From Phytoactinopolyspora endophytica (GTDB lineage Bacteria; Actinomycetota; Actinomycetes; Jiangellales; Jiangellaceae), in assembly GCF_004138495.1 (NCBI RefSeq), contig NZ_ML142878.1, forward strand, positions 5,783 through 18,485: 12,703 nt of DNA, written 5' to 3'. Both the position numbers and the translations under genes were made by a program. Below, in pieces: positions 1 through 12,575 of this stretch (its first letter is position 1; every line of letters begins with the position of its first letter). Under the pieces are notes generated by a model. That model was not told the DNA's origin and ran no database searches. It saw only the letters and a list, made by a program, of their open reading frames with translations.

Positions 1-96
1 GATCACGGCGGAGGCCACCAGGCCGGAACCGACCATCCAATAGGTCGAGCGGAGCGTGCGCAGCCGCGTCCACTCGTATCTGAGCGCATCAAGCAT
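1..96 (-). CDS. ABC-2 type transporter permease, N-terminal fragment
   Basis: Only the first 32 codons are inside the window. Reading from the ATG at 96 gives MLDALRYEWTRLRTLRSTYW, then a hydrophobic run (MVGSGLVASAVI) that opens the first membrane helix. This short amphipathic N-terminus followed by a helix is typical of permease subunits of drug-export ABC-2 transporters. The ATG lies 8 nt inside the end of the ATPase gene and has a good ribosome-binding site, GAGGT at 104-108 with 7-nt spacing, which decides this start over another ATG at 89 that soon meets a stop. The permease would form the membrane channel paired with the adjacent ATPase. The identification rests mainly on context because the protein is cut by the window edge. 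Confidence 0.75.
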   Translation of the reverse strand, partial: MLDALRYEWTRLRTLRSTYWMVGSGLVASAVI

Positions 97-1033
97 TCTG
101 GGCACCTCTGGAGGCATGGGCGGTCTGGATCGGCTTTTCGGCAACGAACTGCTCTGCGGCGCCGGTCGCGGACATGAAGGCCTCTTCCAGCGAGGCCGAG
201 CGGCTGGAGAGCTCGGCGAGCTCGACGCCTTCGGTGAACGCCAGGTGCCCGACCGCGCCGATCTCCATTTCCGAGACGACCAGCTCGCCGTCGTCACCTT
301 TGGCGACGGTCGCGCCCTCGGCTTCGAGGGCGGAGATGAAGGTGCCGGCAGCGGGGCTGCGGACGATGACGGTCGACCGGGTGAACTCGCGGACGAACTG
401 GTCGACGTCGCCGTTGAAGATCATCGTGCCGCGGCCGATGACGACCAGCTCGTCGGCCATGAGCTGCATCTCCGACAGCAGGTGGCTGGAGACGAAGATG
501 GTGCGGCCCTCGGAGGCCAGGCGCTTGAGCAGGTCGCGCATCCAGTGGATGCCGTGCGGGTCGAGCCCGTTGGTCGGCTCATCGAGCAGCAGCGTGTCCG
601 GGTCGCCGAGCAGCGCTTGGGCCAGGCCGAGACGCTGGGCCATGCCCAGCGAGTAGCCCTTGGGCTTCTTGCGCTTGACGGGGCCGAGCCCGACTAGCTC
701 CATGACCTTGTCGACGCGGGCGTCGTCGATCCCGTTGGCCGAGGCGAGCATCTTCAAGTGGTTGCGGGCACTGCGGGTGGGGTGGAACGGCTTCGCTTCC
801 AGCAGCGTGCCGACGCGGTTCATCGGGCGGCGGATCGAGGCGAACTCCTCGCCGTCGAACCGGGTCTCGCCCTCGCCGTGGTCGAGTCCGAGCATCAGGC
901 GCATTGTGGTGGACTTGCCCGAGCCGTTGGGGCCTAAGAATCCGGTGACCACCCCGGGTCGGACCTCGAACGAGAGATCGTCCACCGCTACCGTCTTCTT
1001 GTATCTCTTATGCAGGCCCTTCGCACAAATCAT
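89..1033 (-). CDS. ABC transporter ATP-binding protein, drug/bacitracin-export type
   Basis: A 314-aa cytoplasmic ATPase that would energise the permease encoded next to it. Visible motifs in order are Walker A GPNGSGKST (residues 34-42), the signature region YSLGMAQR (127-134), Walker B TLLLDEPTNGLD (147-158) and the switch histidine in VSSHLL (H184). The C-terminal 100 residues form the accessory domain usual in BcrA/DrrA-like ATPases, and the length is normal for them. The start is set at the ATG at 1033 because the conserved family sequence begins there (MICAKGLHKRY); a longer reading back to 1321 would add a low-complexity arginine-rich tail without homology. This ATG overlaps the stop of the upstream 79-aa gene (ATGA, 1030-1033) and has only a weak binding site (GGAA), so translation is probably coupled. 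The transported substrate is unknown; lipid-targeting antibiotics or peptides are common for this group. Confidence 0.93.
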   Translation of the reverse strand: MICAKGLHKRYKKTVAVDDLSFEVRPGVVTGFLGPNGSGKSTTMRLMLGLDHGEGETRFDGEEFASIRRPMNRVGTLLEAKPFHPTRSARNHLKMLASANGIDDARVDKVMELVGLGPVKRKKPKGYSLGMAQRLGLAQALLGDPDTLLLDEPTNGLDPHGIHWMRDLLKRLASEGRTIFVSSHLLSEMQLMADELVVIGRGTMIFNGDVDQFVREFTRSTVIVRSPAAGTFISALEAEGATVAKGDDGELVVSEMEIGAVGHLAFTEGVELAELSSRSASLEEAFMSATGAAEQFVAEKPIQTAHASRGAQNA

Positions 1034-1269
1034 GGTGTTCCAATCGGGAGACTCGAACGTGATTCGGCTTCGAGCAAATTGCCGAACACGTTGCGGCCCA
1101 ATGCTGCGGGTCGGCCCAGCCGGGGGCCGATGGTAGGGCCAGCGATACCGACGGCGGCGGGCGAGGCCACGACACCTGCTGACGTGCCGCCGGTGGCACC
1201 GGTCGCGGCGGTCAGTAGAAGCCGTCGCATGCCTGCGGCGAGAGGGGATGCAGACGATTCTGTCGTCAT
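1030..1269 (-). CDS. 79-aa protein of unknown function, first gene of the MarR-linked ABC operon
   Basis: I do not recognise the family. The ORF starts at an ATG preceded by GAAAGG at 8-9 nt spacing and ends in an ATGA overlap with the ABC ATPase gene. That coupling, plus its position straight after the operator region, is the best evidence that it is translated. The protein has a short polar N-terminus (MTTESSASPLAAG), then MRRLLL leading into a long alanine/glycine/threonine/valine-rich stretch (about residues 14-50), then a more polar tail with RNVFGNLLEAESRSSLPIGTP. It could be a small membrane-associated or exported protein, a peptide substrate of the transporter, or merely a translated leader that delivers ribosomes to the ATPase. 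There are no cysteines, which argues against lanthipeptide or disulphide-type bacteriocins. High-GC DNA yields open frames easily, so expression is unproven. Confidence 0.5.
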   Translation of the reverse strand: MTTESSASPLAAGMRRLLLTAATGATGGTSAGVVASPAAVGIAGPTIGPRLGRPAALGRNVFGNLLEAESRSSLPIGTP

Positions 1270-1319
1270 CGCTATGCCTTTCAATCGATTGTGAGACCGG
1301 GGGGCGATCCGAAATCCTC

Positions 1320-1349
1320 ATTAGGTAACCTAAGCATAGGTTACCTAAT
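1320..1349. promoter_or_regulatory. Perfect 13-bp inverted repeat: likely MarR operator in divergent promoter
   Basis: The arms are ATTAGGTAACCTA (1320-1332) and its exact reverse complement (1337-1349), separated by AGCA. Each arm is itself nearly palindromic (TAGGT-A-ACCTA), so the site can hold two dimers. It lies 51 nt before the 79-aa gene of the ABC operon and 104 nt before the divergent MarR gene. This is the layout expected of a MarR repressor that controls itself and a neighbouring efflux operon. On the minus strand a TATGCT -10-like hexamer spans the centre, so a bound repressor would block transcription. Assignment to this MarR is inferred from position. Confidence 0.75.
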
Positions 1350-4736: not shown

Positions 4737-5231
4737 ATGAGTACGCGGATCGCTATGCACCCGGCCGATGAGAACGCCGACGCGGTCCTGCGGTTCCGGG
4801 TGGCCGATCTGCTCTGCGTCGCCGAGGGCGTCGTGCGGGTGGGCCGACTCTGTGGCCGCTGCGGCTCGGCAGCGCACGGGAGGCCCTGGGCGAGGATGAC
4901 CGGCGCCCCTGCCCAGGTCGGGGTGAGCCTCTCCCGGTCCGGGTCGCACCTGCTCACAGCGGTGACTACCACGCATGACATCGGTGTCGACATCGAGTCC
5001 GTCGCCGCCGTCGACGCCGGCTGGGAACCACGGCTGGTGCTGCATCCGGCTGAGGCCGAGTTAGTGCGGACGGCGGGGGAACGGGCGGCGATGTGGTGCC
5101 GCAAGGAGGCGATCTTGAAGGCGCTCGGTGACGGGCTTGACACTCCGATGGCCTCGATCCGGGTCGCGGACTTCGAGGTCATCGATGTGCCGGCACCGGA
5201 GGGCTACCGGGCCGCGTACGCGATCATGTAG
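4737..5231 (+). CDS. 4'-phosphopantetheinyl transferase, Sfp type
   Basis: This enzyme moves the phosphopantetheine arm of coenzyme A onto the conserved serine of a carrier domain, turning it from apo to holo form. Visible motifs are the N-terminal CGRCGSAAHGRP (39-50), the magnesium/CoA motif GVDIE (83-87, with D85 and E87) and WCRKEAILKALGDG (120-133, with E124 and K128). At 164 aa it is shorter than Sfp (about 224 aa), but all core motifs are present and the C-terminal strand (GYRAAYAIM) looks complete, so I read it as a compact active enzyme. The start has a binding site GGAGAA 9 nt upstream. It converges with the peptidase-synthetase operon, whose carrier domain (S552 of the synthetase) is the obvious local substrate. 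That partnership is inferred from proximity. Confidence 0.9.
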   Translation: MSTRIAMHPADENADAVLRFRVADLLCVAEGVVRVGRLCGRCGSAAHGRPWARMTGAPAQVGVSLSRSGSHLLTAVTTTHDIGVDIESVAAVDAGWEPRLVLHPAEAELVRTAGERAAMWCRKEAILKALGDGLDTPMASIRVADFEVIDVPAPEGYRAAYAIM

Positions 5232-5301: not shown

Positions 5302-6633
5302 TCAGGGGTGGTGCAGCCGGGGAGGCTCGGGCAGCTCGGTCGAGAAGAGCCAGGCGTCGAAGAGGTCTGAGAGGTCCTCGCCGGCGAACTCGTTGACGTG
5401 GGCGATGAACATCTCGGTGGTGACGTTGCCGCCGTTGTTGGCCGCGACCCAGGTCCGGAGGATCTCGAAGAACGTGTTGTCGCCGACCCGTGCCCGCAGC
5501 GCATGGACGGTGAGGGCGCCACGCTTGTAGACGCGGTCGTCGAACATCAGTTCCGGGCCGGGGTCGCCGAGCAGCAGGTCGCGCGGGAGGTTCGCGAGTT
5601 TCTCGTAGTGGTCGTTCACTCGTTCCTGGACCGGCTTGACTCCGGACTCATGGGACCACAACCACTCGCTGTAGCAGGCGAAGCCCTCGTGCAGCCAGAT
5701 GTCCTTCCATTGGCGCAGCGTCACCGCGTTGCCGAACCACTGGTGGGAGATCTCGTGGGCGATCAGTCGGATCGCGTCCCAGCCGTCGTCGATGAAGTTG
5801 CGGCCGAAGGTGGACAGGCCCTGCGACTCGAGCGGGATCTCGAGCTCGTCGTCGGTGACTACGGCGGTGTAGGAGGTGAACGGGTAATCGCCGTAGATCT
5901 GGGTGAAGAAGTTGAGCATTTCGGCCTGCCGTCCGAAAGAAGCCTGGAAGTTGTCGGAGTGCCGCTCGGCCGGGGCGATGGTACGGACCGGGACTGGAGC
6001 GCCTGTCTGTTCGGTGACCTCGTAGCGGCCGATCTGGACCGTCGCGAGGTAGGTCGGCATCGGCGCGTCCTGCTGGTAGGACCACGTGGTGGCGCTTCCG
6101 CTGCGCTTGGTCGTGACCAGCTCGCCGGCTACTGCGACGTAGTAGTCGGACGGCGCGGTCACTGCGAGGGAGTAGGTCGCCTTGTTGTCCGGCCGGTCGT
6201 TACAGGGGAACCAGGACGGTGCGCCGTGTGGCTGCGCGGCGACGATGGCGCCGTCGGCCAGTTCCTCCCAACCGGCGCTGCCGAGCACCCGCGAGGGCAC
6301 GGGGCGGGGGTTGCCGGCGTATTTCACCCGCACCTGGAACTGCTCTCCGGAGCCGACCGGGTGCTTGACGACGAGCTTGCCGCCACGGTGTGTGAACTTC
6401 TCCGGCCGACCGTTCACAAAGACCTTCTGGAGGCGAAGCGCGTGCAGGTCGACACGGATCGCGTCGGTGGCGGTGAGCGCCCTGCATGTCAGGGTGGCGT
6501 CGCCGTCGAGTCGGTTGCCGACAAGCTTGTAGCCGAGGGCGAGGTCGTAGTGGAGGACGTCGTACGACGCGTCTCCGTGGCCGGGCACGTAAGGGTCGCT
6601 GCCGGGGTGCGCCGGTCTCGCAGTGAAACTCAT
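5302..6633 (-). CDS. M1 family zinc metallopeptidase, coupled to the Pls-type synthetase
   Basis: A 443-aa gluzincin aminopeptidase. The zinc site is HEISH (293-297) with the third ligand E316 in WLHEGF, the exact HExxH-18-E spacing, and QWFGN follows directly. In place of the GxMEN exopeptidase motif it has PLESQG (267-272), a variant I believe occurs in other bacterial M1 members. The beta-saddle domain fills residues 20-200 and the catalytic domain the rest; the length suits the short bacterial M1 enzymes. No signal peptide or membrane helix is seen, so it is probably cytoplasmic. The ATG at 6633 overlaps the synthetase stop (ATGA) and has a strong binding site, so both are made from one mRNA. 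M1 enzymes remove residues from free amino termini. A role in trimming, degrading or detoxifying the lysine-type polymer is plausible, since polylysine producers are reported to carry zinc-dependent polylysine-degrading aminopeptidases, but it is inferred. Confidence 0.92.
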   Translation of the reverse strand: MSFTARPAHPGSDPYVPGHGDASYDVLHYDLALGYKLVGNRLDGDATLTCRALTATDAIRVDLHALRLQKVFVNGRPEKFTHRGGKLVVKHPVGSGEQFQVRVKYAGNPRPVPSRVLGSAGWEELADGAIVAAQPHGAPSWFPCNDRPDNKATYSLAVTAPSDYYVAVAGELVTTKRSGSATTWSYQQDAPMPTYLATVQIGRYEVTEQTGAPVPVRTIAPAERHSDNFQASFGRQAEMLNFFTQIYGDYPFTSYTAVVTDDELEIPLESQGLSTFGRNFIDDGWDAIRLIAHEISHQWFGNAVTLRQWKDIWLHEGFACYSEWLWSHESGVKPVQERVNDHYEKLANLPRDLLLGDPGPELMFDDRVYKRGALTVHALRARVGDNTFFEILRTWVAANNGGNVTTEMFIAHVNEFAGEDLSDLFDAWLFSTELPEPPRLHHP

Positions 6634-9600
6634 TCGTCTTCCTCCCATGGGCCGATCGGGTTCCCGATCCAACGCGTTCGGGAGGGTACGCTCTCACCAC
6701 GCATGACCAGCGACACGGGACCCACTGTGGCATGGCGGCCGATCGTCGCGGCCGGCAAGATCACGCTGTTGGGGCCCAGCGTCGCTCCGGCTCCGAGTGC
6801 CACCGTGTCCATGCTGAGCACCCGGTCGTGGAATAGATGGGTCTGGACGACGCAGCCACGATTGACCGTCGCACCGGCGCGGAGTTCGACCAGGTCGGTC
6901 TCGGGCAGCCAGTAGGTTTCGCACCACACACCCGGCCCGATCCTCGCGCCGAGCATGCGCAGCCACACATTGAGCGCGACGGTGCCGGCGGTCACGCGGG
7001 CGAACCACGGGGCGGCGAGTACCTCGGTGAAGGTGTCAGCGAGCTCGTTGCGCCAGACGAAGGAGGTCCACAGGGCATGGTCGCCGGTGTCGTGGCGCCC
7101 GACGAGCAGCCACTTGGCGGCTACCGTGACCAAAGCAGCCAGGACGCTGCCGACGATCAGCACCGGCCCACCAAGGATGATGCCGAGCAGGATGCCGATG
7201 TCGTCGCGGGTGAGCAGCCAGAACAGAGTCGCCCCTACACCGATGTGGAGCGAGACGCCGAGGAACATCGGGAGGATCCGGCAGGACTCGACCAGCCCGC
7301 GGTAGACGCGGAGCTTCTTCGGCGGGTCGTAAGTGCGGCTACTGTCCTGGTCATCGCTGGTGCGCCGCAGCTTCTGCGGCGGGCTGCCCATCCACGACGT
7401 TCCGGCCTTGGCGACGGCCCGGCCCGGGGCCGCGGAGAGGACCGCGACCAGTGACTGCTTGGGGACCTTGCGGCCTGGGGCGAGCATGCCGGAGTTGCCC
7501 ACGAAGGCACGCTTGCCGACCTTGACCCGCTCGACGCGGATCCAGCCGCCGCCGAGCTCGTAGAAGCCGATCAGCGTGTCGTCGGCGAGGAAGGCGTGGT
7601 CGTTGACGTGGACCAGACTCGGGATCAGCAGCACCGTGGAGGCTTCCACGCCCTCGCCGATCCGGGCTCCGAGCAAGCGCAGCCAGATCGGCGTGATGGC
7701 ACTGGAGTAGACCGGGTAGAGCCAGTCGCGGGCCTCGTCGAGAAGCCGGAGCGTCCCCCAGATCTGGACGCCCACGGCTGAGTGGACGGGGTGGTGGCCC
7801 GGAGAGATGCCCCACGCGAAAAGCCGGGTGAGACCGAGAACGAGTAGCGACAGGACGACGTACGACAGCAGCGCGGCCAGGGGCAGCAACGGCAGAGCGG
7901 AACGGATCGCCTCGCCGAAAGTGTCGGTACCGCTGACGACGGGAACGAGCACGGCCGCGCCGACCAGCATCGAGACCCCTGGGAGCGCGGCGATCAGGAA
8001 GGCAACCAGGCCGTAGACGCCCAGCCACAATGAGCTTGACGACGGGCCCTTGGCCGACCAGGGACCACGGGCCTTGGCATGGCGCTCGGCCGGGGAACCG
8101 GACCAGAACTCGGCGGCAGGGACCCTGCCGGCGACGTGGGAACCGGGGGCGATCTCGGCGTCCTTGCCGACCACGGAGCCGGAGGCGAGGGTGCTGCGGG
8201 CCCCGATACGGGCGCGGGCGCCGATCCTGATGTGGCCGATGTGGACAAGGTCGCCGTCGATCCAGTGGCCGGCCAGGTCGACCTCGGGCTCGACCGCCGC
8301 GTGCTTGCCGATCTCGAGCATCCCCGTGACCGGGGGCAGAGTGTGCAAGTCGACGCCCTTGCCGATCTTCGCACCCAGCAGACGGGCGTAGAAAGGGAAC
8401 CACGGCGCCCCGGCCAGACCAGCGGCACCGAGCTCATCCTGGATCTTCTCGGCGAGCCAGATCCGCAGGTGGACCCGGCCGCCGCGGGGGTAACTGCCTG
8501 GCTCGAGCCTGCGGAGGAAGAACCGGGCGAGGCCCGCGGCCAGGGTCATCCGGCCGGGCGGGATGAGGAAGAACCAGCCCGTAACGATCATCAGCCATAG
8601 CGGAAACGACTCCAGCCAGGGCAGGTCGGTTGCTGCAGCGCCGATCGTAGAGGCGATCATCAGCCAGGTCACCCAGCGCAGCGCAGCCAGCGCCCGCAGC
8701 GGGACGAGCGCCAGCAGCTGGCCGATCTGAGTCTTCCGGCGGATCGGCCGAACCTTGCGGTCCGACATCACCTTGGCGCGGCCCATGTCTTCGAGGTTTG
8801 CGGCCAGCGTGGCCACCGTCGGGTTGGCGTAGAGATCTCCGACGGCGACCTCGGGATACTTCTCCCGGAGCCGGCCGACCACCTGGGCGGCGGTAAGCGA
8901 CCCGCCTCCGAAGTCGAAGAAGTCATCCTTGGGTGAGGTGACGTCGGCGCCGAGCACTTCGGCCCAGATCTCGGCGATCCAGGCGCTGGTGCCGCCCAGC
9001 TTGGCGACGGTGTCGCGACTCTTGGGCAGCGGCCACGGGAGTGCATCGCGATCAACCTTGCCGGAGGTGCGGGTCGGGAGCTCGTCGACGACGGCCAGGC
9101 GCGGCACGAGCGCGGCCGGCATCCGCAGCCGTAGGAGTTCCTTGGCCGCGCCGGAGTCATAGCGGTCGTTGACGGTGAGATAGCCGACCAGCACTTTGTT
9201 GCCGGACTTCGTGGAGCGCACGGTGGCAGCGGCGGAGACCACGCCGGGGATCCGCAGCATCTGGTCGTCGATCTCGCCGAGTTCGATGCGGCGTCCGCCG
9301 AGCTTGATCTGGTCGTCGGCGCGACCGGCGAATACGAGGCCGTCGGGGTCATTGCGCACGACGTCGCCGGAGCGGTAGGCACGATCCCAGGCCAGCGTCG
9401 GCATAGGTGCGTACTTCTCAGCGTCCTTCTCAGGGTCGAGGTAGCGGGCCAGGCCGACGCCGCCGATGATCAGCTCGCCGGACTCGCCTTCGGCGACCGG
9501 GTGGCCTTCGGGATCGACGACGGCGAGATCCCAGCCGTCGAGCGGGAGCCCGATCCGGACCGGGGCGTTGCCGTCGAGCATCGCCCCGCAGGCGACGACG

Positions 9601-10553
9601 GTGGCCTCCGTGGGGCCGTAGGTGTTCCAGACCTCGCGTCCTTCCGCCTGGAGCCGGGCAGCCAGCTCGGGCGAGCAGGCTTCGCCGCCCATAATCAGCA
9701 GCCTGACCTTGGCCAGCGCCTGGCGCGGCCACAGGGCGACGAGGGTTGGGACAGTTGAGACGATCGTGATGTCGTTGGCGACCAGCCAGGGGCCGACGTC
9801 GACCCCGGAGCGGACGAGCGACCGCGGCGCCGGCACCAGGCACGCGCCGTACGCCCAGGCCAGCCACATCTCCTCGCAACTGGCGTCGAAGGCGACCGAG
9901 AGCCCGGCCATCACGCGGTCGCCGGTGCCGATCGGGCGCTCCTGGAGGAACATCCGGGACTCGGCTTCGACGAAGGCGGCGGCGTTGCGGTGGGTGACCG
10001 CGACACCCTTGGGCTTGCCGGTGGAACCGGAGGTGAAGATCACCCAGGCATCGTCGCCGGGCTCCACGTCGCGCTGGGGCGTGGCCTCACTGGCGCGTCC
10101 GGCGGGGGTGGGCGAGACGACAAGGTCGTTGCCGACGATCGCCACCGCACCGGATTCCTCGAAGACGACGCGGGCCCGCTCGTCGGGGTCGTCGGCATCG
10201 ACAGGGACGTAGGCGGCCCCGGCGACGAGGATGCCGATGATCGCGACATAAAGGTCGGTCGTGCCAGACTTGATGCGTACGCCGACCTTGTCGCCCGGGC
10301 CGACGCCGATCGCTGCGAGTCGCCCGGCGAGCTCGGTGGCTGCCTCGTCGAGCTCATCATAAGTCAGCGTTTCCAGGCCGCTGTCGACGGCGAAAGAGTC
10401 GCCGTACTCCTCGACTGTGCTCCGGAAGATGGAGACGAGGGTGCGCGGGGAAGCGGCCCGGTCAACTGCGAGAAGCTCGGGGAGCAGGGCGTGTCGAGCA
10501 TCGACCATTGGCGAATTGTCGTACACCCAGATGAACGGCGGACGTACGGCCAT
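6630..10553 (-). CDS. pls: Pls/PosA-type membrane nonribosomal peptide synthetase, probable poly-epsilon-lysine synthetase
   Basis: A 1307-aa single-module enzyme with the architecture of Streptomyces albulus epsilon-poly-lysine synthetase, close to its length of about 1320 aa. The adenylation domain (about 35-510) has FTSGSTGKPKG (173-183), FDAS (222-225), NTYGPTEAT (310-318), YRSGD (393-397), GRADDQIKLGG (410-420) and TSGKVDR (496-502). The carrier domain (about 520-590) has FFDFGGGSL with S552 for phosphopantetheine. Six hydrophobic segments (about 612-640, 648-668, 843-872, 886-910, 1092-1115, 1118-1150) separate three hexapeptide-repeat/acetyltransferase-like domains (about 717-822, 947-1058, 1188-1297), which in Pls join monomers through isopeptide bonds. 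Specificity residues D223, A224, E227, S266, I287, G289, T311, V319, V320 and K499 read as a lysine-type code. The start is uncertain: the ATG at 10553 has only a weak GGA site, and an ATG at 10508 would shorten it by 15 residues. Confidence 0.92.
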   Translation of the reverse strand: MAVRPPFIWVYDNSPMVDARHALLPELLAVDRAASPRTLVSIFRSTVEEYGDSFAVDSGLETLTYDELDEAATELAGRLAAIGVGPGDKVGVRIKSGTTDLYVAIIGILVAGAAYVPVDADDPDERARVVFEESGAVAIVGNDLVVSPTPAGRASEATPQRDVEPGDDAWVIFTSGSTGKPKGVAVTHRNAAAFVEAESRMFLQERPIGTGDRVMAGLSVAFDASCEEMWLAWAYGACLVPAPRSLVRSGVDVGPWLVANDITIVSTVPTLVALWPRQALAKVRLLIMGGEACSPELAARLQAEGREVWNTYGPTEATVVACGAMLDGNAPVRIGLPLDGWDLAVVDPEGHPVAEGESGELIIGGVGLARYLDPEKDAEKYAPMPTLAWDRAYRSGDVVRNDPDGLVFAGRADDQIKLGGRRIELGEIDDQMLRIPGVVSAAATVRSTKSGNKVLVGYLTVNDRYDSGAAKELLRLRMPAALVPRLAVVDELPTRTSGKVDRDALPWPLPKSRDTVAKLGGTSAWIAEIWAEVLGADVTSPKDDFFDFGGGSLTAAQVVGRLREKYPEVAVGDLYANPTVATLAANLEDMGRAKVMSDRKVRPIRRKTQIGQLLALVPLRALAALRWVTWLMIASTIGAAATDLPWLESFPLWLMIVTGWFFLIPPGRMTLAAGLARFFLRRLEPGSYPRGGRVHLRIWLAEKIQDELGAAGLAGAPWFPFYARLLGAKIGKGVDLHTLPPVTGMLEIGKHAAVEPEVDLAGHWIDGDLVHIGHIRIGARARIGARSTLASGSVVGKDAEIAPGSHVAGRVPAAEFWSGSPAERHAKARGPWSAKGPSSSSLWLGVYGLVAFLIAALPGVSMLVGAAVLVPVVSGTDTFGEAIRSALPLLPLAALLSYVVLSLLVLGLTRLFAWGISPGHHPVHSAVGVQIWGTLRLLDEARDWLYPVYSSAITPIWLRLLGARIGEGVEASTVLLIPSLVHVNDHAFLADDTLIGFYELGGGWIRVERVKVGKRAFVGNSGMLAPGRKVPKQSLVAVLSAAPGRAVAKAGTSWMGSPPQKLRRTSDDQDSSRTYDPPKKLRVYRGLVESCRILPMFLGVSLHIGVGATLFWLLTRDDIGILLGIILGGPVLIVGSVLAALVTVAAKWLLVGRHDTGDHALWTSFVWRNELADTFTEVLAAPWFARVTAGTVALNVWLRMLGARIGPGVWCETYWLPETDLVELRAGATVNRGCVVQTHLFHDRVLSMDTVALGAGATLGPNSVILPAATIGRHATVGPVSLVMRGESVPSRTRWIGNPIGPWEEDE
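6640..6645 (-). promoter_or_regulatory. Strong ribosome-binding site for the M1 peptidase inside the synthetase gene
   Basis: On the minus strand GGAGGA lies 6 nt before the peptidase ATG and within the codons for the last residues of the synthetase (WEEDE). It fixes the start at 6633 rather than at the upstream in-frame codons, and shows the overlap is functional, not an annotation artefact. Confidence 0.85.
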
Positions 10554-10667
10554 CCCTGGTCCGGCCGCAAAGGCGCTCCACGCCGTTTTCTTCGCAGGTC
10601 AACCCCCACCGTGCCACGGACTTATCGCAACTTCGGACCAGCTCATGCCGCCTCGAGACGGGAGCGC

Positions 10668-10693
10668 TGACGGAATAAGCGAACTATCCGTCA
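10668..10693. promoter_or_regulatory. 7-bp inverted repeat upstream of the synthetase gene, possible regulator site
   Basis: TGACGGA (10668-10674) and TCCGTCA (10687-10693) are exact inverted arms 12 nt apart. They lie 115-140 nt before the synthetase ATG and just after the stop of the response-regulator gene. Spaced inverted heptamers suit a dimeric NarL/LuxR-type regulator, so this could be where the adjacent response regulator acts on the synthetase. It could equally be a weak RNA hairpin after the two-component genes. In the same gap TTGACC (minus strand, 10598-10603) is a good -35 hexamer, but no matching -10 is seen at 17 nt. Confidence 0.35.
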
Positions 10694-10707
10694 CATTGCC
10701 GAATGGG

Positions 10708-11388
10708 TCAGACCAGGCCTTGGTCGCGAGCGTATAGCGCAGCCTGAGTGCGGTCGCGAAGGCCCAGCCGATTCAGGATCCTGGAGATGTGATTCTTGAC
10801 GGTTCCTTCGCTGAGGTATAGGCGCTCGGCGATCTCACGGTTCGTCGAGCCGGTGGCCACGAGGCGCAGTACGTCGACCTCCCTGGCAGTCAGCGGATGG
10901 CGGGTCGGTTCTCGGCGCGGTGAGTTGTTCGGACGGTCGAGTGCCGACGTGAGCCGGGCTGCCGCGGCCGGATCGAACTGGACAACGCCGGCGTGCGCCG
11001 TTCGTACCGCATCGGCAAGTTCTTGCGCCGGACGGTCTTTGAGCAGGTATCCGCTGGCGCCGGCCTGGAGCGCATGCACGACGTACTCTTCGTCGTCGAA
11101 GGTAGTAAGCATGACCACCCGGCAGTTCGGAGCCCGGCCACGCAGGACGGTGACCGCTTCGATGCCGTCCATGGTGGGCATCCGTACGTCCATCAGGGCT
11201 ACGTCCGGCTCCAAGTTGAGTACGGCGTCAATTGCCTGCCTGCCATCGGCCGCGGTGCCGACCACCGCAATGCCGGGCTGTATATCCAGCAAGGACGCTA
11301 TGCTCTCCCGAATCAGCCGCTGGTCGTCGACGACGATGACGCAGATGTCGCGCGCTGGCCGTGGGACACGTTCTGGCTCGTCGGTCAC
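10708..11388 (-). CDS. NarL/LuxR-type response regulator
   Basis: A 226-aa two-domain regulator. The receiver domain (about 15-130) has the acidic pair D21-D22, phosphoacceptor D67 in ALMDVRMPTMDG, T95 in MLTTFDD and K117 in GYLLKDRP, so all switch residues are present. A linker leads to the LuxR-type helix-turn-helix (about 164-225) with LTAREVDVLRLVATG, then TNREIAERLYLSEGTVKNHI and LNRLGLRDRTQA. It starts with GTG at 11388, overlapping the kinase stop by 4 nt (GTGA), with AAGG 7 nt upstream inside the kinase gene, so the pair is translationally coupled and surely cognate. The synthetase starts 155 nt downstream on the same strand, making it a candidate target or even an operon member. That link is positional only. 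Confidence 0.93.
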   Translation of the reverse strand: MTDEPERVPRPARDICVIVVDDQRLIRESIASLLDIQPGIAVVGTAADGRQAIDAVLNLEPDVALMDVRMPTMDGIEAVTVLRGRAPNCRVVMLTTFDDEEYVVHALQAGASGYLLKDRPAQELADAVRTAHAGVVQFDPAAAARLTSALDRPNNSPRREPTRHPLTAREVDVLRLVATGSTNREIAERLYLSEGTVKNHISRILNRLGLRDRTQAALYARDQGLV

Positions 11389-12575
11389 ACAGCCACCTTG
11401 TGCGGGATGGTAACGATGACCCGCGTGCCCGCATCCGGCCCGCTGACCACCTCAACCGAGCCGCCCACGAGCTGCACTCGCTCACGCATTCCGAGCAGGC
11501 CGTAGCCTTCACGCTCGGGCGGAAGTCCGCACCCGTCATCGGCGACTACCAGATGTGCACCTTCGTCGTCACAGCGAGCGGTCACCCGCACGTGGGACGC
11601 CTGGGCGTGGCGGCGGGCATTGGTGATGCCTTCCTGGGCAGCCCGGTAGAGCGTGGTCAGCGCGGCCGGATCACACCGGCCTTCATTACCGGCGAAGTCG
11701 AGGCTGACCGACAGCTCGCCGCCGGCAGCCTCGTGAACCAGGTCATCCAGTGCCGCCGAGAGGCGGAACGGCTCAGTCGGGGCGCGCAGCGTGCGTACCG
11801 AGTGCCGTACGTCCTCAAGTGCACGCCGTGCCGAGCGGCTGGCATCGTCAAGGGCCTGCCGTACTGCGGGGCGGTCGCTGTCGAGGAACGTCGTGGCCTT
11901 CTCCAGCAGGACTGTGATGGCCGTCAGGTGGTGCCCGAGCCCGTCGTGGATGTCGCGTGCGACCCGGTTCCGCTCGGCCGCCGCCGACAGCTCAGAGACC
12001 CGTGAGGCATAGGTGCGTAGCTGGGCATGGGACTGCTCCAATCGCGCCCTGCCGCGCTGCTCTTCCACGGCGACCGAGGCCATCGCGATGGTCAGCGCCA
12101 GCCCGACCACGAACATCAGCAGATCGGAGACCTGCTCGACTTCGCTGTACCACTGCGGGACAGTCAACTCGAAGCTGATCACGAGCAATCCCAGGCTGAC
12201 GAGGCCGAGGGCGATGCTCACCTTCCAGCCGAACGCGAAGTACGCAGTGAACGGCAACAGCAGAAACAGCACCCGGGACAGGCCGGAGCCATCGGAGGCA
12301 GCCACAGCAACGAACAGGCACAGCCGAGCGACGAGCAGGGCGATCGCCGGGACGGTCGGCGTGCTCGCCAGGTATCGGCGGCGCTCGACGACGTCCAGCG
12401 CCATCAGCAATGTCAATCCGGCCACGAACGGCACAACGCTGGTGTGACCGAGGCCGGTGATTCCCGCGAATGTCCCGGCGACCAAGACGACGCCGTAGAG
12501 CACCGGTGAAACCCACGGCACCGGTCTGGTGGGAGAACCCGCAGGAACTGCGGCGTCGAGCCCGGCTGGCAGCAT
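11385..12575 (-). CDS. Membrane sensor histidine kinase, NarL-partner (HisKA_3) type
   Basis: A 396-aa kinase. About six hydrophobic segments (roughly 23-40, 46-62, 74-92, 101-116, 118-136, 150-170) form a membrane sensor with only short loops, suggesting it senses a membrane or envelope condition rather than a large periplasmic ligand. A coiled linker (171-200) leads to the dimerisation/phosphoacceptor motif ERNRVARDIHDGLGHHL with H210. The ATP-binding domain has the N-box QEGITNARRHA (N319), the G1 motif DDGCGLP (346-352) and GYGLLGMRERV (357-367), typical of DesK/NarX-like kinases. The start is the only ATG in frame (12575). No good ribosome-binding site precedes it, but TACGCT lies 6 nt upstream, consistent with a leaderless transcript. 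The signal is unknown; cationic-peptide or envelope stress is a guess from context. Confidence 0.93.
   Translation of the reverse strand: MLPAGLDAAVPAGSPTRPVPWVSPVLYGVVLVAGTFAGITGLGHTSVVPFVAGLTLLMALDVVERRRYLASTPTVPAIALLVARLCLFVAVAASDGSGLSRVLFLLLPFTAYFAFGWKVSIALGLVSLGLLVISFELTVPQWYSEVEQVSDLLMFVVGLALTIAMASVAVEEQRGRARLEQSHAQLRTYASRVSELSAAAERNRVARDIHDGLGHHLTAITVLLEKATTFLDSDRPAVRQALDDASRSARRALEDVRHSVRTLRAPTEPFRLSAALDDLVHEAAGGELSVSLDFAGNEGRCDPAALTTLYRAAQEGITNARRHAQASHVRVTARCDDEGAHLVVADDGCGLPPEREGYGLLGMRERVQLVGGSVEVVSGPDAGTRVIVTIPHKVAV

Follow-up and report, generated by a model that had tools for sequence, protein, structure and literature searches.

The chemistry of epsilon-poly-L-lysine (epsilon-PL) synthesis is already known for the Pls family of synthetases. 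In Streptomyces albulus, according to the accessible part of PMC9223678, the pldII gene is translationally coupled to pls and is required for self-protection, and its product is placed outside the membrane. An operon of pls and a peptidase gene has been reported for Pls of Streptomyces and Corynebacterium (PMC8117764); the accessible portion of that paper reports the pair for epsilon-PL but for none of three other polymers, and places the diaminobutyrate (Dab) and diaminopropionate (Dap) enzymes in a different context. The same portion describes Pls homologues as widespread in coryneform actinobacteria. It states that the Pls of Corynebacterium variabile yields epsilon-PL in S. coelicolor, that no epsilon-PL was detectable in C. 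variabile itself and that expression of its Pls in C. glutamicum gave none. PosA, the delta-poly-L-ornithine synthetase of Acinetobacter baumannii, belongs to the same protein family and has a terminal domain likewise modelled with three beta-helices, but differs from the enzyme studied here in its ornithine substrate, its single-gene operon and its pocket code DMEHNGTVSK (PMC10522769, accessible text). The nearest code to that of PosA was that of a lysine-activating domain of bacitracin synthetase, yet ornithine was preferred. In the same text, DGESISVVNK is given as the beta-lysine code, and code position 2 is associated with substrate type, Ala with lysine, Met with ornithine and Phe with Dap or Dab.

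The window, i.e. the whole 12,703-nt stretch of Phytoactinopolyspora endophytica DNA that was analysed, contains a pls gene and an adjoining peptidase gene (Table 1). Judged from its sequence, this gene pair very probably encodes an epsilon-PL synthetase and a coupled PldII-type peptidase for self-protection or polymer degradation, and was most likely acquired horizontally. The complete Pls architecture claimed in the first-pass annotation was borne out by the domain scores and an AlphaFold model. In profile searches the protein scored 677 bits against TIGR02353 (cut-off 423.1), and its succession of AMP-binding, carrier and Pls/PosA terminal domains is that of the Pls/PosA family. One TIGR02353 gene exceeded the cut-off in the source genome, a second match reaching only 23 bits. 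The reading frame was intact, and so were the pocket, the serine of the carrier domain and the coupled peptidase. The true start of pls may be Met16, which would agree with the length of the database prediction for the same protein (1292 aa), although the alignment reached residue 1 in 103 of 119 relatives (from the best 120 of 7504 proteins).

Table 1. Features of the pls locus, numbered by position in the window
Feature	Position	Strand	Remarks
4'-Phosphopantetheinyl transferase	4737..5231	plus	PF01648; converges on peptidase
M1-family metallopeptidase, PldII-type by position	5302..6633	minus	443 aa from ATG 6633; HEISH zinc motif and downstream Glu
ATGA overlap, pls stop/peptidase start	6630..6633	minus	GGAGG just before; predicted translational coupling
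pls, Pls/PosA-family synthetase	6630..10553	minus	1307 aa from upstream ATG; 1292 aa from Met16 (window 10508)
Terminal polymerisation domain, TIGR02353	6654..8720	minus	residues 612-1300; modelled as three helix pairs with three left-handed beta-helix units
Carrier (PP-binding) domain	8799..8981	minus	Ser552 as phosphopantetheine site
Adenylation (A) domain	9021..10454	minus	residues 34-511; best PDB match 7wew_A, E 5.3e-178
Pocket residues D223...K499, code DAESIGTVVK	9057..9887	minus	same code in 197/200 aligned sequences
Congener-shared flank	10699..12575	minus	response regulator 10708-11388 and histidine kinase 11385-12575; outside pls unit

The closest solved structure by far was 7wew_A, named epsilon-poly-L-lysine synthase, which we take to be the A domain of S. 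albulus Pls. With the pocket-forming residues assigned from GrsA anchors, the pocket of the window protein was identical to that of 7wew_A at 10/10 positions in a pairwise alignment, through the motifs FDASCEEMW, VSTVP, LLIxGGE, NTYGPTE, TVVAC and TSGKVDR. The code read in the first-pass annotation was thereby confirmed; its likeness to the bacitracin code DAESIGSVCK gave way to the 7wew_A pocket as the closer match. Code position 2 is Ala224, the lysine type, and neither Met (ornithine) nor Phe (Dap/Dab), and the code as a whole differs from the PosA and beta-lysine codes. A lysine 2,3-aminomutase, the neighbour expected of an epsilon-poly-beta-lysine synthetase gene, was not found among the ten window ORFs run against Pfam. 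The pocket code assigns the window enzyme to the lysine type.

The same code was carried by nearly all of the 200 aligned sequences, close relatives of the window protein that comprise the window itself, 119 of the best 120 of 7504 proteins and the best 80 of 592 loci; the exceptions were DAESVGTVVK (twice) and DAASIGTVVK (once), and the carrier serine was kept in 200/200. The protein and locus sets overlap (e.g. P0064 and P0065 with L007, P0098 with L008), and the 200 sequences are therefore not all independent. Moreover, the 80 loci were picked with six peptide patterns, one of which (CEEMWLAW) spans pocket residue Glu227, so that agreement at this residue is partly built in. In the DAASIGTVVK sequence, P0055, the conserved Glu of the pocket is replaced by Ala, reflecting either a sequence error or an altered enzyme. 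For a control, 20 TIGR02353 loci from elsewhere in the class were hand-picked (and thus non-random) among the 72 positive genomes so as to cover multi-copy and divergent members; codes were counted in the 11 loci bearing an A domain, the nine without an A-domain match, L116 among them, being left out. Seven of the 11 carried DAESIGTVVK, while DFEYLGTVTK occurred twice and DFEYIGTVTK and DFECLSAVTK once each. These four divergent members (L120-L123) have Phe at position 2, the chain-length position, and DAESIGTVVK is therefore not universal in the Pls/PosA family.

The AlphaFold model of the terminal domain predicts six membrane helices arranged in pairs, with three units (C1-C3) between them, each modelled as a left-handed beta-helix of the hexapeptide acetyltransferase fold. 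Hydropathy alone resolved four stretches in the window protein and five as the family mean. Foldseek returned no match to the 708-residue terminal domain at E <= 0.001; the best matches were single acetyltransferase domains with E values of 0.0012 and above. TIGR02353 genes without a window-like A domain in the stretch examined were observed in 9/20 class loci (L109, L111 and L113-L119), the stretch of L116 being cut by a contig end. The three of these that were scanned (L109, L113 and L119) showed only carrier and hexapeptide domains, with two carrier stretches in L119, and are presumably stand-alone Pls terminal modules loaded in trans.

In each of the best 80 of 592 loci, pls was followed on its own strand by the gene for a related M1 peptidase; the two genes overlapped as NTGA in 48/80, and in 13 more the peptidase start lay on the final base of the pls stop codon. 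The gap reached about 2.1 kb in one Tsukamurella locus (L026); in the Tsukamurella/Williamsia loci L026, L037, L039, L041 and L053 the peptidase frame starts 0.3-2.1 kb after pls, without overlap. Among the control loci an M1 match was found in 5/7 with DAESIGTVVK and 0/4 with DFE codes, a weak test covering only 0.4-0.6 kb past pls. By eye, no signal peptide was seen on the window peptidase, a point against the best explanation, given the extramembrane location of PldII (PMC9223678, accessible part). With its M1 peptidase, PldII-type by position, and the ATGA overlap, the window has the operon context of epsilon-PL-type Pls. It shares with S. albulus Pls the order of A, carrier and terminal domains, all ten pocket residues and the coupled downstream peptidase, and differs in host order and in peptidase gene length (1332 bp, against 1404 bp for pldII in the accessible part of PMC9223678). 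Like C. variabile and other coryneforms (PMC8117764, accessible portion), the host is a non-Streptomyces actinomycete with pls and peptidase in an operon; its lineage is a different one, and the gene is rare in its own family.

Taken together, the A domain would activate L-lysine as the adenylate, as the pocket suggests, and load it on the carrier serine, which would have been primed by some phosphopantetheinyl transferase, perhaps the neighbouring one. The membrane-embedded terminal domain, with its three acyltransferase-like beta-helix units, would then link the lysine carboxyl to the next epsilon-amine; as in the family generally, polymerisation would proceed without the usual condensation domain of nonribosomal peptide synthetases. 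By analogy with S. albulus PldII, the translationally coupled peptidase would degrade the polymer, either for self-protection or for setting chain length. The neighbouring transferase may activate the Pls carrier domain; a similar converging gene was present in 9/80 loci (best 80 of 592).

Apart from the peptidase, no neighbour family occurred in more than 22 of the best 80 of 592 loci, these counts being rough since the clustering was done on raw ORFs, false frames included. On the other side of pls, the contig matched congener G002 from window position 10699 upward with 88% identity (32 kb of G002 compared), and no match was found below this point. The match ends 9 bases past the response regulator stop codon; in the other direction it continues outside the window as far as contig position 20233. 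The upstream histidine kinase was 89% identical to a kinase of Phytoactinopolyspora halotolerans. The two-component system was considered as part of the pls unit and dropped, as it occurs without pls in G002. Regulator-like ORFs were present in 9/80 and kinase-like ORFs in 7/80 loci (best 80 of 592), and just one of them was closer than 1 kb to pls: in L007, a regulator match with 31% identity lay 0.7 kb upstream. An ABC transporter ATP-binding gene at window 89-1321 (minus strand) resembled lantibiotic-protection and daunorubicin-resistance genes below curated cut-offs; DNA like its middle part was found in 4/4 congeners (76-77%), and this gene is therefore not specific to the pls unit.

A Pls above the cut-off was found in 1/5 Phytoactinopolyspora genomes and in 1/22 Jiangellaceae genomes, in both cases the source genome itself, the four congeners scoring below; in 20 of the 22 genomes, completeness is 90% or more and contamination 5% or less. 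Across the class, TIGR02353 exceeded the cut-off in 72/296 sampled genomes, a count in which the source genome is included, as are genes lacking an A domain. Among the matches listed (best 120 of 7504), the nearest Pls proteins belonged to Nocardioides sp. Root151 (81% identity over the length searched) and Brachybacterium sp. FME24 (79%), both from other host orders; we know of no product for either protein. In the Pls tree the window protein was sister to the Nocardioides protein, with a support of only 0.907. By RpoB, the source was nearest to Kribbella kalugense among 16 genomes searched (81% identity), with Ornithinimicrobium and Aeromicrobium at 79% each and Nocardioides sp. Soil805 at 77%; the Pls of K. 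kalugense (L062) was 57% alike to the window Pls. The RpoB search took 16 of 17 chosen genomes (L071 was left out), and L020 and L080 gave fragmentary matches only. As Ornithinimicrobium is as near as Aeromicrobium, and nearer than Nocardioides, RpoB places the host only roughly.

Because the gene is the only one above the cut-off in 22 family genomes and its nearest relatives are in Nocardioides and Brachybacterium, horizontal acquisition of the pls-peptidase unit by Phytoactinopolyspora is likely and is the simplest reading, the alternative being that pls was lost in the other 21 family genomes. Since G002 matches the contig only upstream of pls, pls is missing at that site in the congener; the 32 kb of G002 compared share only the upstream side with the contig and so do not mark where the acquired stretch ends downstream. 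The same distribution might suggest a contaminated assembly, in which the contig came from a strain of Nocardioides or Brachybacterium, given where the nearest Pls among the matches listed was found and that four congeners lack one above the cut-off. Such an origin is extremely unlikely: the adjoining 3.7 kb, reaching to where the response regulator ends, and the histidine kinase are both congener-like, and contamination was largely refuted on these grounds.

The lysine-homopolymer product proposed in the first-pass annotation remains the best reading, supported by the complete pocket match and by a pls-peptidase pair typical of epsilon-PL. It is very unlikely that the enzyme instead makes a homopolymer of ornithine, Dab, Dap or beta-lysine. 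PosA and the Dap, Dab and beta-lysine enzymes do have the same architecture, and PosA misled code-based prediction (PMC10522769, accessible text), a precedent for how prediction of substrate from code can fail. Against this, position 2 is neither Met nor Phe, the code is not DGESISVVNK, and Dab and Dap enzymes are placed outside the pls-peptidase context in the accessible portion of PMC8117764. The ornithine, Dab and beta-lysine alternatives that had been left standing therefore lost ground, as their pockets do not match the window code. A different possibility, compatible with epsilon-PL synthetase as the best explanation, is that pls is intact but silent or non-producing in this host, having been acquired as a cassette that lacks a functioning trigger. 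The reading is tentative and less likely than not. It would fit the occurrence above the cut-off in only one family genome and the silent C. variabile Pls (PMC8117764, accessible portion), a case indicating that a homologous pls gene can be silent, which counts against assured production. A promoter/terminator scan upstream of pls found nothing, with no sigma-70-type promoter matched at window 10480-10760, a weak test in a GC-rich host. Against silence, the frame is intact, and the pocket residues, the carrier serine and the coupled peptidase are all in place.

The window pls is thus an ordinary representative of a well-described family, and the gene beside it is the usual partner. The novelty implied by placing it outside the known producers is weaker than it appeared, since Pls is published as widespread in coryneforms (PMC8117764, accessible portion) and 72/296 class genomes were positive. 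For Phytoactinopolyspora and Jiangella, none of the papers among the matches listed concerned polylysine or NAPAA clusters, judged by title or abstract opening. Epsilon-PL is approved as a food preservative in a growing number of countries (PMC8117764, accessible portion), and a new source enzyme would therefore be of modest practical value. A speculative and rather improbable idea is that pls and the peptidase gene, in some cases joined by a phosphopantetheinyl transferase of their own, form a self-contained mobile cassette for production plus protection that crosses actinomycete orders, with a role of the polycation here other than antibiosis. The locus adds a genus of Jiangellaceae to the likely makers of epsilon-poly-lysine, and is a clear-cut example of a pls-peptidase pair that is rare and probably acquired, where the site in a congener has no pls.
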